Below, piece by piece: positions 30,777 to 54,861 of a stretch of 55,285 nt of DNA. Under the pieces are notes generated by a model. The model was not told the DNA's origin. It worked only from the letters and a program-made list of their open reading frames with translations, and did not search any database. How positions within the stretch are numbered: position 1 is the first letter of the stretch; the number at the start of each line of letters is the position of its first letter. The DNA is taken from assembly GCA_030648005.1 (NCBI GenBank), contig JAUSIP010000009.1, positions 1 to 55,285 on the forward strand, read 5' to 3'. The position numbers and the translations under genes were made by a program. The stretch is from a bacterium (GTDB taxonomy: Bacteria > Patescibacteriota > Minisyncoccia > Phycocordibacterales > UBA12445).

Positions 30777-31283
30777 GTGGAAGAACTCTTTGCTCATTTG
30801 GGAATAAACTGGAAACTGCTCATAGCCCAGGGAGTGAACTTTTTTGCTTTGGTTCTTCTTCTAAACTATTTCTTGTACAAGCCGCTGGTTAAGCTTATGA
30901 ATGATAGGCGGGCTAGGATTGAGGAGGGTTTGAAGAATGCCGATGATGCGAAGAAGAGGTTGGCGGAGATAGATGACCTTCGTCAGGCGGAGGTTATGAA
31001 AGGCGAAAAAGCTGCTCTAGTAATAATTGAAGATGCTAATAAGTCCGGTCAGGCTCATAAGGATAAGATAAAGAAAGAAGCAGAAGCAGAGGCAGAGGCT
31101 ATGAAGAAGAAGACCGAAGAGCTTGGTCGGCGTCTGATACAACGTGAGATGGAGAATTTGGAGAAGAATTCTAAAGAGCTCATTGAGAAAGCCATCTTTG
31201 AATCCGTGGGTCTTCATCCAACGGAGATCGATCATAAGTTGGTTTCTGATGCTGTCGGTGCGATAAAGAGATTAAGATCATGA
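30777..31283 (+). CDS. atpF: F-type ATP synthase subunit b
   Basis: N-terminal TM, coiled coil; GTG start; position. Confidence 0.95.
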   Translation: MEELFAHLGINWKLLIAQGVNFFALVLLLNYFLYKPLVKLMNDRRARIEEGLKNADDAKKRLAEIDDLRQAEVMKGEKAALVIIEDANKSGQAHKDKIKKEAEAEAEAMKKKTEELGRRLIQREMENLEKNSKELIEKAIFESVGLHPTEIDHKLVSDAVGAIKRLRS

Positions 31284-31663
31284 GATATAGTCCCGCACTT
31301 TACGCCAAGTCGTTATTTGAAGTTTTAGACGGGGCCAAGTCTGATGAGTATGATTTGATATTGCAAAATTTTAAGCAGACCATAGAGAAGTATGGTGATC
31401 TATCTCGGATTAATTCAATAATAGAATTTTTTGAGGGTCTTGTTGTGACAAGTAGTGGTGGCAGAATGATAGAGATAGAGACGGCGAGGGAGATCCCAGA
31501 TGCAGAACAGTCACAGCTGGCAAAGTTGTTCAAGCAGGGAGATATTATAAAGAAGTCCATAGACCCGAGTTTGGTTGCTGGGGTCAGAGTGGAGATTGAT
31601 GGCGAAGTAGAGCTTGATTACAGTTTAGCCAGGAAATTTAGAAATATGTTTGCCGTAAAATAA
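31280..31663 (+). CDS. atpH: F-type ATP synthase subunit delta (short)
   Basis: C-terminal DPSLVAGVRVEIDGEVELDYSLARKFRNM; position. Confidence 0.92.
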   Translation: MRYSPALYAKSLFEVLDGAKSDEYDLILQNFKQTIEKYGDLSRINSIIEFFEGLVVTSSGGRMIEIETAREIPDAEQSQLAKLFKQGDIIKKSIDPSLVAGVRVEIDGEVELDYSLARKFRNMFAVK

Positions 31664-31666
31664 TGA

Positions 31667-31758
31667 TTAAAAATTTGAAAATAAATAATGAAGCGTTAGC
31701 GATACCTTCTAGCGAAGCGGGTGGAGCGGTGCTTTATTGTTTATTCTTGAATTTTTAA
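31667..31758 (-). repeat. Conserved-head hairpin A, copy 2 (inverted orientation)
   Basis: 28-nt arms; head is reverse complement of ACCGCTCCACCCGCTTCGCTAGAAGGTATCGCTAAC. Confidence 0.8.
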
Positions 31759-31770
31759 ATCGAAATAAAT

Positions 31771-33294
31771 ATGAATTACGATATTGTAGAAAAGTTAAAG
31801 AGAGACATTGGTGGCCGGAAGGATGAGGTCGGTTTTGAAGCTGTCGGCAAGGTAGTTGAGACATCTGACGGTATTGCCAGGATCTCAGGCTTGAGCGGAG
31901 TACAGAGCCAGGGACTCATCTTGATTGAGACAGCCGATGGAGATGTGCCAGCACTCGTGCTTAACTTGGAACAAGGTTTTATCGGCGCAATTGTTCTGGG
32001 TGAGTCTGACAAGGTTAAAACAGGAGACAAGGTTAAGAGTACAGGTAAGGTTCTTTCGCTCAAGGTTGGCGAGGAGATGGTCGGCAGAGTTGTGGATGCT
32101 CTTGGAGAGCCGATAGACGGTAAGGGTGCGATATTCAAGGATCCATCTAAGGCGACAGTATATGAACTTGAGCGCGGTGCACCTTCCGTACTGGCTCGCG
32201 AGTCAGTCGGTACACCTCTCCACACTGGAGTGAAGTCAGTGGACGCCATGATCCCTATCGGCCGAGGCCAGAGAGAGCTCATCATTGGAGACAGACAGAC
32301 CGGCAAGACGGCTATCGCTTTGGATACGATAATTAATCAGGGTAAGGAAGCAGGCCGTGTCGTTTGTATATATGTAGCTATCGGTCAGAAGAGTTCTAAG
32401 CTCGCCAAGATAGTCAAGATGCTCGAAGATAACGGCGCTATGAAATATACGATCGTGGTAGCCGCTTCTGCTTCAGACCCAGCCTCGATGCAATACTTGG
32501 CTCCTTACGCCGGCTGTGCTATTGGTGAATATTTCAGAGACGACGGTCAGGATGCTCTGGTTGTGTATGATGACTTGTCTAAACATGCGGATGCCTACAG
32601 ACAACTCTCTCTGCTTTTACGAAGACCGCCGGGCCGAGAGGCTTATCCTGGAGACGTATTCTATCTCCATGCAAGATTACTTGAACGAGCCGCCAAGATG
32701 AGCAAGGCGAATGGTGGCGGATCGCTTACGGCTTTACCTATTATCGAAACGAAACTTGGCGACGTATCCGCTTATGTGCCAACCAACGTTATATCTATTA
32801 CTGACGGACAGATCTATCTTGAGGCGTCACTTTTCTTTAAGGGCGTACGCCCAGCTATCAACGTCGGACTCTCTGTCTCTCGAGTTGGATCAGCCGCTCA
32901 GACTAAGGCTATGAAGAAAGTGGCGGGCAAGTTGCGTCTTGATCTGGCGCAGTTCCGCGAACTTCAGGCTTTCCTTCAGTTCGCATCTGATCTTGATGAA
33001 GCGACTAAGCAGAAGATTAGAAGGGGAGAACTTTTGACTGAGATGTTGAAGCAGATCGATGGCGCACCGATGAGCTTCGACAAGCAGGTTATTGTTCTAT
33101 ACGCCGCCTTGAACGGTTTCTTGGATGACATGCCGGCGACGGAGGTGAAGAGTTTTGAGAAAGGGTTCGTGGATTATATGGAGTCTCTTCACGCTGATGT
33201 GATGGATTCTATTAGGAAGACTCGTGCTATCGATGAAGCGGCTGAAAAAAATCTTCGCGCGTTCATCGAAGACTTTAAAAATCTGAAAAAATAA
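31771..33294 (+). CDS. atpA: F-type ATP synthase subunit alpha
   Basis: [18 protein letters not shown]. Confidence 0.98.
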
Positions 33295-34259: not shown

Positions 34260-35645
<1,386 letters not shown>

Positions 35646-35762
35646 ATTTACAATTATCAATTTACAATTTTTAATGAATGTTACATTGAGTAAATGTTTA
35701 AAACATTTTAACATTGAAAATTTAATGAAAATTAAAAATTGTAAAATTAAAAATTTGATGTA

Positions 35763-38065: not shown

Positions 38066-38216
38066 ATAAAAAATATAAACGAGCGGTTTGTGTAGCGGAA
38101 GCCTACTTAGATTTCCAATGGTCTGGCCGAGCCCTCCCATCAGAGGGCGAAGGAGATCCGAGGACCTTGGAAATTTAAGGAGGTGGAGCAACAAACCCGA
38201 GTGAAATATTTTTTAC
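38066..38216. repeat. Long palindrome E2
   Basis: AAAAAATAT...ATATTTTTT, GGTTTGT/ACAAACC, ATTTCCAA/TTGGAAAT, GCCCTC/GAGGGC nested. Confidence 0.7.
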
Positions 38217-41202: not shown

Positions 41203-41679
41203 ATGCCAGGAAATAATAGTAAAAAGATATATATCGCAAGTGACCATGCCGGGTTTGAGTTGAAGGGTAAGCTGATTGATTATCTGGAAATAGAAGGCTA
41301 TATAATTCAAGATATGGGCGCCCATTCTTATGATGAGGCTGATGATTATCCGGATTTTGTCTCTTTGGTAGCGCGCGAGGTCTCTGATAGTCCGGTGGAG
41401 TCGCTTGGTGTTGTGATCGGTGGTTCAGGTCAGGGTGAGGCGATGGTCTGCAATAGGTTCCCGAATGTCCGAGCCAGTGTCTACTATGGAGGCAACTTAG
41501 ATGTAGTGAAGACGACTCGCCAACACAACGACTCCAATGTTTTGTCGCTCGGTGCTCGCTTCATGAGTGAAGAAGAAGCCGAAAGTGCTTTGAAGATTTG
41601 GCTAGAAACAGATTTTTCCGGTGAAGAGAGGCACATCAGACGACACAAAAAAATTGAGGAATTAAAAAATGTTAAATAA
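41203..41679 (+). CDS. rpiB: Ribose-5-phosphate isomerase B / LacAB family
   Basis: IASDHAGFELKGKL; NDSNVLSLGARF. Confidence 0.92.
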   Translation: MPGNNSKKIYIASDHAGFELKGKLIDYLEIEGYIIQDMGAHSYDEADDYPDFVSLVAREVSDSPVESLGVVIGGSGQGEAMVCNRFPNVRASVYYGGNLDVVKTTRQHNDSNVLSLGARFMSEEEAESALKIWLETDFSGEERHIRRHKKIEELKNVK

Positions 41680-41756
41680 AATATTAAAGCATCTCTCACC
41701 CCGCTTCGCTAGAAGGGTTCGTTCACGCTTCAATATCTTATTTAACATTTTCTAAT
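41661..41756 (+). repeat. Conserved-head hairpin A, copy 1
   Basis: ~30-nt arms; head ATCTCTCACCCCGCTTCGCTAGAAGGGTTCGTTCAC (41691-41726). Confidence 0.85.
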
Positions 41757-41759
41757 ACC

Positions 41760-42398
41760 ATGAATATTATTCCAGCCATAATCGGCAAAGATTTTAATGA
41801 GGTAGAGGAGAAGGCACTTTCCGTGAAGAACTTTACCACTTGGGTCCACCTCGACATAATGGACGGACTTTTTACACCAACAGAAAGCTGGTCATATTTC
41901 GATATCAAGAAAGGTCAAGCGAAAGATCTTAAGGTTGAGGTGCATTTAATGACTAGGCATCCTCTGCGCATTTTGTCTAAGTGGATCGAGGCTGGGGTAG
42001 ATAGGGTGATGGTGCATTATGAGTCGACAGATGTAAGGACACTTGCAAATATTTTACAAGAGTTGAATGATTCAGAGGTAGAAGCGGGAATAGTATTAGA
42101 ATATGAGACACCCATCTCTGTTCTGGATCAATTTATAGATCAACTCGATGTGGTACAGCTGATGGGTATCGCGCATATCGGATTTTACGGTCATCCGCTA
42201 GAATACGGGATTTATGACAAGGTTAAGAGTTTGCGAGCTAAGTATCCGGGTGTTACAATTAGCGTTGATGGCGGTGTGAATTTGAAGAACGCCGAGAAGC
42301 TGATGAAAGCCGGTGCAGATAATTTAGTTATTGGTTCTGCGATTTTCAGGAGCGAGAATATAGAAGAGACAATAAAGAATTTCAAAAATATAAAATAG
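41760..42398 (+). CDS. rpe: Ribulose-phosphate 3-epimerase-like
   Basis: VHLDIMDGLFTPT; VEVHLMTRHP; ISVDGGVNLKNAEKLMKAGADNLVIGSAIF. Confidence 0.88.
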   Translation: MNIIPAIIGKDFNEVEEKALSVKNFTTWVHLDIMDGLFTPTESWSYFDIKKGQAKDLKVEVHLMTRHPLRILSKWIEAGVDRVMVHYESTDVRTLANILQELNDSEVEAGIVLEYETPISVLDQFIDQLDVVQLMGIAHIGFYGHPLEYGIYDKVKSLRAKYPGVTISVDGGVNLKNAEKLMKAGADNLVIGSAIFRSENIEETIKNFKNIK

Positions 42399-43265
42399 AT
42401 GAGTTTACATGAAGGTAAAATAAAGGAGCTTGAGGTGATGGCGAACGAGATCCGCAAGTCCATCATCGAGATGCTTGTCGAGGCTGGCTCCGGCCACACT
42501 GCGGGTCCACTTGGAATGACGGATATTTTCACCGCTTTTTACTTTCATATTTTAAATCACGACCCGAAGGATCCGATGAAGGAAGATAGGGATAGATTGG
42601 TGCTATCTAATGGACACATCTGTCCGGTGCTCTATGCGACGATGGCGCATGCTGGTTATTTTCCCACAGAAGAGTTAATGACATTAAGGAAATTCGGTTC
42701 TCGTCTTCAGGGCCATCCTCATCGGGAATTCATGCCGTGGCTGGAGAACAGCTCCGGTCCCTTGGGGCTCGGTTTAGCACAGGCTGTAGGAATGGCGTTG
42801 GCGCAAAGGATCGATAAGGGTGTGTCGAGCAACCAATATGTTTATGCATTTTTAAGCGATGGTGAGCAGGAATGTGGCCTGACTTGGGAAGCTGCGATGC
42901 TTGCAGGTAAGAATAAGCTTCATAACTTGATAGCGGTTATAGATAGAAACAACATCCAGATCGACGGCTTCACGGAAGATATAATGCCGTTAGAGCCCTT
43001 GGCCGATAAGTGGCGGGCCTTCAACTGGCATGTGATAGAGATAGACGGACATAATTTCCAGGAGATTGTATCTGCTGTGGATCAGGCTAAGGCAATCTTT
43101 GAGAAGCCGACAATGATCATCGCTCACACCATTCCAGGCAAGGGGGTTGGCTTCACCGAGAAGCGTTTTGAATGGCACGGTAAGCCGCCAAATAAGGAGG
43201 AGGCGAAGCTGGCGCTGGAAGAGCTTAGAACTCTGGGTGGTAAGATAGTAAGTGAGCATCAATAA
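42399..43265 (+). CDS. Transketolase N-terminal subunit
   Basis: EAGSGHTAGPLGMTDI; FLSDGEQECGLTWEAAMLAG. Confidence 0.95.
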   Translation: MSLHEGKIKELEVMANEIRKSIIEMLVEAGSGHTAGPLGMTDIFTAFYFHILNHDPKDPMKEDRDRLVLSNGHICPVLYATMAHAGYFPTEELMTLRKFGSRLQGHPHREFMPWLENSSGPLGLGLAQAVGMALAQRIDKGVSSNQYVYAFLSDGEQECGLTWEAAMLAGKNKLHNLIAVIDRNNIQIDGFTEDIMPLEPLADKWRAFNWHVIEIDGHNFQEIVSAVDQAKAIFEKPTMIIAHTIPGKGVGFTEKRFEWHGKPPNKEEAKLALEELRTLGGKIVSEHQ

Positions 43266-43270
43266 AATGG

Positions 43271-43362
43271 TAAAAAATTTAAAAATAAATAATAAAGTAT
43301 CTCTCACCCCGCTCCGCTAGAAGGGTTCGTTCACACTTCATTATTTATTTTGAAATTTTTAA
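43271..43362 (+). repeat. Conserved-head hairpin A, copy 3
   Basis: 28-nt arms; head ATCTCTCACCCCGCTCCGCTAGAAGGGTTCGTTCAC (43299-43334). Confidence 0.85.
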
Positions 43363-43372
43363 CATAATTTTT

Positions 43373-44362
43373 ATGATAGTAGAAAATCAAAAATTAAATC
43401 CGAAACTGTTTGACGCTGATGTGGAGAAGGTGCCTATTCGCAATGGCTTCGGCGAGGGGCTTCTTCAGGCCGGGGCGGAGGATGAGAAGATCGTCGGTCT
43501 TTGTGCTGACCTTACTGAATCCACCAAGATGCTGGCTTTTGCGGAGAAATTCCCGAAGAGGTTCATCGAGATGGGCGTGGCCGAGCAGAATCTTGCCGCC
43601 ACTGCTTCCGGTATGGCTGCGATAGGCAAGATACCATTTTTGAGTTCCTATGCCGTCTTCTCACCCGGTAGGAACTGGGAGCAGATCAGGACGACTATCT
43701 GCTATAACGACAGGAATGTGAAGATCGTAGGCTCGCATGCCGGAGTGTCTGTGGGTCCGGATGGCGGGTCACACCAGGCGGTGGAGGATATCGCTATTAT
43801 GCGGGTTTTGCCGAAGATGCGAGTGGTGGTACCGGCTGATTCGATTGAAGCGAAGAAGGCGACCTTAGCGATAGCCAAGAATGACGGCCCTGTTTACCTA
43901 CGGCTTGCAAGAGAGAAGACGCCGGTTGTAACGACAGCCGACTCACCATTTGAGTTCGGCAAAGCCAACTTGCTTTGGGAGAGCGATGCACCGTCAGTGG
44001 CTATAATCGCTTCCGGCCCTCTTGTCTATAACTCTCTGATGGCGGCTAAACAGCTCGAGACTGATGGGGTGAAGGTCTTAGTTCTGAATTTACATACTAT
44101 AAAGCCGATCGACAGCGAGGCTATAATATCTGCAGCTAAAAGAGCTGGTGCAGTGGTGACAGCCGAAGAGCATCAGGTGAACGGCGGTATGGGTTCTGCT
44201 GTGGCGGAGGTGTTGGCGGCCAACCACCCTGTACCAATAGAATTCATCGGTGTCCACGACCGCTTCGGTCAGTCCGGCAAACCGGAAGAGCTGATGGAGT
44301 ACTATGGTATGGGTGTTAAAGATATAGTTGCAGCGGTGAAGAAGGTGATGAGTAGGAAATAA
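43373..44362 (+). CDS. Transketolase C-terminal subunit
   Basis: FIEMGVAEQNLAATASGMA; TAEEHQVNGGMGSAVAEVLA. Confidence 0.95.
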   Translation: MIVENQKLNPKLFDADVEKVPIRNGFGEGLLQAGAEDEKIVGLCADLTESTKMLAFAEKFPKRFIEMGVAEQNLAATASGMAAIGKIPFLSSYAVFSPGRNWEQIRTTICYNDRNVKIVGSHAGVSVGPDGGSHQAVEDIAIMRVLPKMRVVVPADSIEAKKATLAIAKNDGPVYLRLAREKTPVVTTADSPFEFGKANLLWESDAPSVAIIASGPLVYNSLMAAKQLETDGVKVLVLNLHTIKPIDSEAIISAAKRAGAVVTAEEHQVNGGMGSAVAEVLAANHPVPIEFIGVHDRFGQSGKPEELMEYYGMGVKDIVAAVKKVMSRK

Positions 44363-50034: not shown

Positions 50035-50050
50035 AAGTTCTTAATTAATA

Positions 50051-50147
50051 AACTACCAAATCTACGTGGTCTGGTTGAGGAAAACTCTGAAACTAAAGAG
50101 TCGACCCTGTTTTCCGACCCGAGGACCCGGAGATTTGGTAGTTTTTT
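50051..50147 (+). ncRNA. Structured element between rpmE and prfA (ncRNA or elaborate terminator)
   Basis: 13-bp closing stem AACTACCAAATCT/AGATTTGGTAGTT with T6 tail; inner GGAAAAC/GUUUUCC and ACUCU/AGAGU. Confidence 0.55.
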
Positions 50148-50181
50148 AATTTCAGAACTTATAGCTTATAATGTTTTAAAC

Positions 50182-54770: not shown

Positions 54771-54861
54771 TAAAAATAGCTAAGCAATAGAGCATCTCTC
54801 ACCCCGCTCGTAAAAACTCACTAGAAGGGTTCGTTCACGCTCTATTGCTTAGCTATTTTTA
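54771..54861 (+). repeat. Conserved-head hairpin A, copy 4
   Basis: Perfect 23-bp arms TAAAAATAGCTAAGCAATAGAGC/GCTCTATTGCTTAGCTATTTTTA; head ATCTCTCACCCCGCT...CTAGAAGGGTTCGTTCAC. Confidence 0.9.

Follow-up and report, generated by a model that had tools for sequence, protein, structure and literature searches.

A conserved hairpin head on paired, variable arms in a Minisyncoccia genome: a candidate family of small mobile palindromic elements

Introduction

A long hairpin separates rpiB from rpe in the genome studied here, and its head recurs elsewhere in the same genome on arms that always pair. How does one head come to stand on differing arms, and what keeps those arms complementary? A conserved head on paired arms that have diverged to different degrees lets one ask, as in a natural experiment, what keeps a long hairpin paired, with selection, template switching, or both as the candidate forces. 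The occurrence of small palindromes within essential genes is well established for Rickettsia and for some REP families; our literature search found none described in candidate-phyla-type bacteria.

Results

The hairpin between rpiB and rpe

We re-located the arms and head of the predicted palindrome and found it to be real, at 41661 to 41756 of the window (the whole stretch of DNA analysed, 55,285 nucleotides). Its parts and neighbours are listed below, with the arms named in head sense.

41203-41679, plus strand: rpiB (LacAB_rpiB, PF02502)
41661-41690, minus strand: 3' arm of copy 1, containing the rpiB final codons and TAA stop (41677-41679)
41691-41726, minus strand: conserved 36-nt head of copy 1, in head sense GTGAACGAACCCTTCTAGCGAAGCGGGGTGAGAGAT
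41727-41756, minus strand: 5' arm of copy 1, ending 3 nt ahead of the rpe ATG
41760-42398, plus strand: rpe (Ribul_P_3_epim, PF00834)

The rpiB 3' end does lie within the left arm, as had been claimed, while the mismatches between the arms, described at first as only of the A/G type, are in fact three A.C on the plus strand, that is, G.U on the minus-strand transcript. Folded as RNA, the minus strand reaches -41.9 kcal/mol compared to -12.8 kcal/mol for shuffles (z -10.5), with all arm bases paired; folded as DNA, the copy has a z of -4.5. The plus-strand RNA reaches only -24.5 kcal/mol because its three A.C mismatches are G.U on the other strand. This strand asymmetry recurs at the 43.3-kb copy and, with orientation reversed, at the 31.7-kb copy, and therefore the head has a sense. 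It reads GTGAACGAACCC-TTCTAGCGAAGC-GGGGTGAGAGAT and lies on the minus strand at 41.7, 43.3 and 54.8 kb and on the plus strand at 31.7 kb. A chance palindrome is ruled out by the recurrence of the head and by a fold far better than that of shuffles.

Five copies in one genome

With up to three mismatches the head occurs twice in the window (0.00 expected), and with larger differences allowed we recovered four loci, the number given in the original prediction, on the strands stated above. The further copies and their neighbours are as follows.

31280-31663, plus strand: atpH (OSCP, PF00213), upstream neighbour of copy 3
31667-31758, plus strand (opposite orientation): copy 3, atpH/atpA gap; arms 31667-31694 and 31731-31758, diverged head 31695-31730
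31771-33294, plus strand: atpA (PF00006), downstream neighbour of copy 3
42399-43265, plus strand: transketolase N-terminal subunit, tktN (PF00456)
43270-43363, minus strand: copy 2, tktN/tktC gap; arms 43270-43298 and 43335-43363, head 43299-43334 with one difference
43373-44362, plus strand: transketolase C-terminal subunit, tktC (PF02779/PF02780)
54771-54861, minus strand: copy 4; arms 54771-54793 and 54839-54861 (100% complementary), head 54794-54838

Copy 4, whose terminal loop is longer by 9 nt, begins at the stop codon of a minus-strand ORF that ends at 54859 and is adjoined by a tRNA gene. A fifth and identical head lies on contig C11, downstream of rsmA. A covariance model of the hairpin (R1) has exactly these five matches in the genome, referred to here as family A, and four of the five fall on the 55-kb contig of the window (P for at least four of five, 1.3e-4).

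All five copies are intergenic, and each adjoins or overlaps the stop codon of a gene. At rsmA the arm covers the final codons and the stop, as at rpiB, while the remaining three copies (43.3, 31.7 and 54.8 kb) start at a stop codon or 3-5 nt past one. Their position next to stop codons would fit a cis-acting or small structured RNA of head sense, in which a protein-bound tandem-G.A head on a long stem serves in the 3' UTR, in stability, processing or termination, and is inherited or duplicated. We consider this explanation unlikely, since the 41.7- and 43.3-kb copies are antisense to their operons whereas those at 31.7 kb, C11 and 54.8 kb are in sense relative to the upstream gene. A Rho-independent terminator was rejected: the pattern scan omits the hairpins at 41.7 and 43.3 kb from its terminator-like list, and a short G+C-rich stem, small loop and U tract are expected, compared to paired arms of 21-30 bp, A+T-rich at three copies, and a 36-nt head.

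Absence from orthologous sites and from databases

Neither the 60 relatives nor the 397 genomes of the order that were searched gave an R1 match of comparable score. The best matches outside this genome are long hairpins in G062 (L089, 49 bits) and G127 (L090, 37 bits), whose heads carry a CGA//GAG module like that of family A and which we do not count as proven members. Matches in G017, G031/G339, G044 and G200 look like generic long hairpins and were set aside.

Orthologues without the palindrome had been proposed as a check, and all orthologous sites examined are of this kind: the family A hairpin is absent from the rpiB-rpe and atpH-atpA junctions of G001 and from the rsmA and tktN sites of G002. 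At the G001 junctions the rpiB stop is 2 nt before the rpe ATG, and atpH overlaps atpA. The relatives are distant, with RpiB at 72% amino-acid identity within the genus. This absence argues against an RNA function inherited at each site. It also bears on the possibility that long palindromes, for instance terminators, were there first and received the conserved head in their loops as a mini-element. Hairpins are the targets of some insertion elements, and such insertion would directly yield one head on unrelated paired arms; the arm ends of some copies are an A-run and a T-run, as in bidirectional terminators. Yet the corresponding G001 and G002 sites have no palindrome, arms are shared between loci (see below), and loops of 3-4 nt on shorter stems are found in many of the genome's other palindromes; together these points make loop insertion very improbable.

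Exact head strings were absent from 85,462 species genomes, in a search limited to exact matching and possibly leaving out the genome's own or near records. The hairpin had no match to Rfam covariance models at gathering score, which the window reaches only for two tRNAs; this too speaks against a structured RNA. A phage or plasmid origin was rejected, the phage and plasmid records giving only A+T-rich matches of 29-34 nt, as was a viral one, for which viral-contig patterns gave four contigs with one identical, unrelated-looking stretch, or nothing.

A wider class of related hairpins

A survey of long inverted repeats in stretches of this genome and its relatives, combined with a tandem-GA pattern scan in which the arms were scored, found a wider class, in which heads 5'-(A)GCGAA..//..GUGAGC-3' are carried by paired arms; its members occur within the genus, elsewhere in the family and in further families of the order. 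Tandem-GA heads of the form (A)GCGAATTCCCCTC..ACCGTGAGC stand on unlike arms in G002 (another genus of the family), in this genome and elsewhere. These elements are about 65-100 bp long with stems of 15-37 bp. By eye, a 5' half GNGANCGAA..CCC and a 3' half GUGAGNG are common to family A and the wider class. A second covariance model, R2, built from the heads of relatives, matched 13 copies in G002, 3 in G001 and 1 in G000 (inside polA), with weaker matches in G113, G258, G105 and G060/G328/G378; in this genome it did not find the family A copies. The head pattern suggests that family A and the R2 class belong together, a motif-level inference made without a significant model score.

One in-gene copy, kept by vertical descent in two species that belong to a single genus, agrees between them at 57/59 positions (97%), while the adjacent 57-nt flanks are 84% and 77% identical and nearby flanks span 77-89%. 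Compared to 84% flank identity, this conservation has a P of about 0.003, and such retention within a gene whose flanks diverge would be expected of a structured RNA.

Arms that are partly shared between loci

The original prediction held that the arms differ at each locus while staying self-complementary. The arms do always pair; they are not, however, different everywhere. The 5' arms of the 31.7- and 43.3-kb copies are 26/28 identical (p=5e-5, dinucleotide shuffles). There are two weak relationships besides, one of the 41.7-kb 5' arm with both of these (p about 0.004; 0.02 without the inner 5 bp) and one between the 5' arms of the 54.8-kb and C11 copies (15/23, p=0.013), and all other family A arm pairs are at chance. 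In G002, the arms of the murB (L230) and mnmA (L233) copies agree at about 18/25 positions by eye, a significant pair, and six copies share one arm sequence over 15-18 bp. Since arms are common to unrelated loci (atpH-atpA and tktN-tktC; murB and mnmA) over about 25-28 bp, the arms travel with the head and would then diverge as pairs.

These shared arms do not agree with an earlier proposal, that some 20-30 bp of host flank are duplicated in inverted form at insertion, either brought along by the head or set off by it, such that one arm is ancestral and the other its copy. The arm common to six G002 copies speaks against it as well, as does a murB insert longer than the head plus one arm, and the wobble asymmetry described below shows arms evolving as a pair after insertion. 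The proposal fails as a rule and may still apply to rsmA and rpiB, where the arms contain the final codons and stop of the gene. The arm-coded C-terminus of RsmA (..CLVKSTKR) resembles those of palindrome-free orthologues (..CLVKTLS and ..CLSTKLSKN), and RpiB has the same length as in G001; the arm-coded C-termini of RsmA, and of RpiB, look like ordinary host C-termini. Further, complementarity in the wider class extends past the point where copies stop resembling each other: copy-to-copy identity is above background only in the inner 12-14 bp and falls to background by about 15 bp, while pairing holds in 14-18 of 19 copies out to 17 bp and in about half beyond. Taken as a general account, inverted duplication of host flank is distinctly unlikely.

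Between copies, conservation generally covers the head and the inner 5-14 bp; farther out the arms are at background identity, some pairs excepted. A doubtful alternative is that the mobile unit would be no more than the head with a few base pairs next to it. After landing, the stem would be grown outwards by hairpin-primed template switching, one host flank being copied inverted onto the other. Each copy would so acquire a host-derived stem of its own, kept paired because the head-sense strand has to fold as single-stranded DNA or RNA.

Arms that change in concert

In the wider class, 86 cells of the alignment changed on both sides of a pair, compared to 23 in shuffles and 12-21 in slid controls. 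The covariation check that had been proposed comes out in favour of the hairpin, with 93.4% of cells paired and a score of 0.76 compared to 0.29 for shuffled and at most 0.20 for slid controls, in an alignment that was fitted to the model and leans towards the structure. In this alignment, which comprises 25 distinct R2 matches, each of the 14 pairs has changed on both sides in at least one instance, and the G-C pair next to the G.A module switches to A-U in concert (helix 2: GC/AU and CG/UA). At non-Watson-Crick arm positions read on the head-sense strand, G.T outnumbers A.C by 38 to 10 (p=6e-5, a value that treats copies as independent, which related copies are not). Since most mismatches are G.U on the minus-strand (head-sense) transcript, one strand is the structured one. 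The both-side changes and the wobble asymmetry support the claim that the arms are under structural selection. Wobble pairs concentrated on one strand, and a tandem G.A motif kept in the head with a covarying neighbour, are also what a structured RNA would show.

Copies inside protein genes

We found that the element in G002 MurB is an in-frame insert of about 27 amino acids relative to a gap-free G000 MurB, and that G002 ileS carries two in-frame element inserts of about 20 amino acids each relative to a gap-free G003 ileS. More copies lie in long ORFs matching polA (G000), mnmA (G002 and G113, another family), gatA, dusB and others. In the coding sense the head mostly reads SAHGKRGGFA-like, and other frames occur too; the verified in-frame inserts bear on how such peptides are tolerated in conserved enzymes of minimal genomes.

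The head sense is antisense to the gene in 11/11 coding copies (p=0.001), a generous count in that two copies (G378 and G060) are one orthologous site. Because these copies are antisense, the favoured fold is absent from the mRNA, which argues against a structured RNA and implies that a pairing constraint on gene-borne copies would act on single-stranded DNA or antisense RNA.

By eye, the polA linker holds an R2 copy in G000 and other palindromes in G002 and G003, with none in G001, a pattern which suggests that insertion was repeated at tolerant sites, as for the Rickettsia elements discussed below.

In sister genera the palindromes of this polA exo-polymerase linker (L197-L200) differ, and G001 has none there, which suggests that the linker is a hot spot of palindrome insertion. 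Head-type palindromes with unrelated arms also occupy about the same loop of mnmA in three genomes of two families (L233 in G002, L214 in G113 and L122 near 1682 in G000), either an insertion hot spot or one old insertion.

Ends, target sites and transposases

In the flanks of 29 copies inspected by eye, neither GTAG (GTRG) nor CGTC is common to the ends. Target-site duplications had no consistent length: the longest shared end string averaged 3.4 compared to 3.0 for mismatched pairs (about 2.5 sd), with no common length. Of the features of a MITE, inverted arms are present and a direct duplication of fixed length was not found. An SNQ..SNQ repeat in polA and an S(H/N)PS repeat in murB were considered as target duplications and were not reproduced elsewhere. 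Movement of the hairpin is inferred from the distribution of its copies.

Y1 transposase genes are present in five of the six genomes searched, including the copy-richest (3 matches in G000, 8 in G002 and 2 in G001). No family head lies within 300 bp of the Y1 genes inspected in G000, G001, G002, G060 and G113, and these genes mostly carry other, short-loop hairpins.

Discussion

A small family of candidate mobile palindromes

We lean towards the view that family A consists of mobile palindromic elements, few in number, non-autonomous and RPE-like, whose arms travel with the head and then drift while remaining paired; on balance this reading is probable. A stem-loop of approximately 80-100 nt, head plus arms, would disperse to new sites as one unit and land where an insert is tolerated: beside stop codons or, for members of the wider class, within protein genes. 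After insertion the head would be held by a constraint, either a protein that recognises it or the fold that it forms itself, with its tandem G.A module, while the arms would drift in concert. Complementarity could be kept by hairpin template switching in replication, each event of which would rewrite one arm from the other and could extend the stem outwards over neighbouring DNA. In addition, base pairing of the head-sense strand, as RNA or single-stranded DNA, would be selected. As mobiliser we would guess at a Y1 transposase of the RAYT type that uses the hairpin in single-stranded form as its substrate.

Comparison to known systems

The hairpin family looks like a little-known relative of the Rickettsia palindromic elements (RPEs), long stem-loops fused in frame into genes (Ogata et al. 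2000, PMC2229807). Both are small palindromic stem-loops, intergenic and in frame within conserved protein genes, with reading frames open through the element, and neither has a known transposase. Occurrence both between and inside genes is a property of the wider class (murB, and ileS twice); family A itself is intergenic only. RPE repeats are 105-146 bp (PMC2229807) and their ends are CGTC (PMC3733652), whereas the elements described here are shorter (65-100 bp, as above), are conserved only in the head and inner arm, have a tandem G.A module in the head and no CGTC end, and reside in hosts other than Rickettsia.

GTAG REPs are reported to fall into subfamilies whose stems have alternative residues that remain complementary, along with GT pairs (PMC3733652). 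The original prediction that no standard REP or MITE has the property seen here was therefore too strong, since GTAG REPs (PMC3733652) and RPEs (PMC2229807) come near it. Like GTAG/CGTC REPs, the elements are short palindromes found mainly downstream of genes and sometimes inside them, with complementary stem variation and GT pairs, in a genome that contains RAYT-like genes. They differ in lacking a GTAG or CGTC tag at the stem foot, in stem length (REP stems are mostly 6-9 bp) and in not being adjacent to the RAYT-like genes inspected.

Maintenance of hairpins by template switching has been described for RNA genes (Monttinen and Loytynoja 2022, PMC8794818), and long near-perfect stems, compensatory changes and a conserved loop are the pattern that this mechanism predicts. 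The palindrome described here is dispersed, in contrast to those RNA genes, and its arms can be compared across many loci. In Nematomorpha mitochondria, long coding palindromes have arms that encode conserved host-protein residues (PMC6649704). Long inverted repeats are kept paired within protein-coding genes in both cases, while here the gene gains an inserted peptide and a shared head instead of carrying conserved host residues in the arms.

Other palindromes in the genome

RAYT-like Y1 genes were seen at L119 (C4), L103 (C8) and L140 (C17), and at L238, L239, L240 and L242 in relatives. Several are flanked by short-loop hairpins, for example TACTTGGACGC tta GCGTCCAAGTG, whose stem letters vary between genes with complementarity kept.

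A second head family, GGTCTGG..CCGAGGACC with a shorter variant CCGAGCCCTCCC..GGAGATCC, was seen in nine copies in this genome. Its arms are paired and partly variable, and its flanks have further GCGGA//GGAAGC modules. The copies are:

Window: 38090-38190 and 50043-50151
L099: 15297, minus strand
L106: 13592-13676
L111: 3758-3876
L118: 2561-2646, minus strand
L127: 15256-15353
L138: 9667, minus strand, and 11979, plus strand

A palindrome at L117:1234-1297 (minus strand) has arms of the CGTCATTGCGAGGCACGAAGCAATCT type and in this resembles the REP type with a CGTC tag that is described for Rickettsia. Repeated A+T-rich long palindromes, AATTTTTAATTTGCAATTTTCAAT..ATTGAAAATTAAAAATTGTAAATT, lie at L102:17521-17632, L112:17275-17388, L140:8421-8548 and 35643-35749 of the window.
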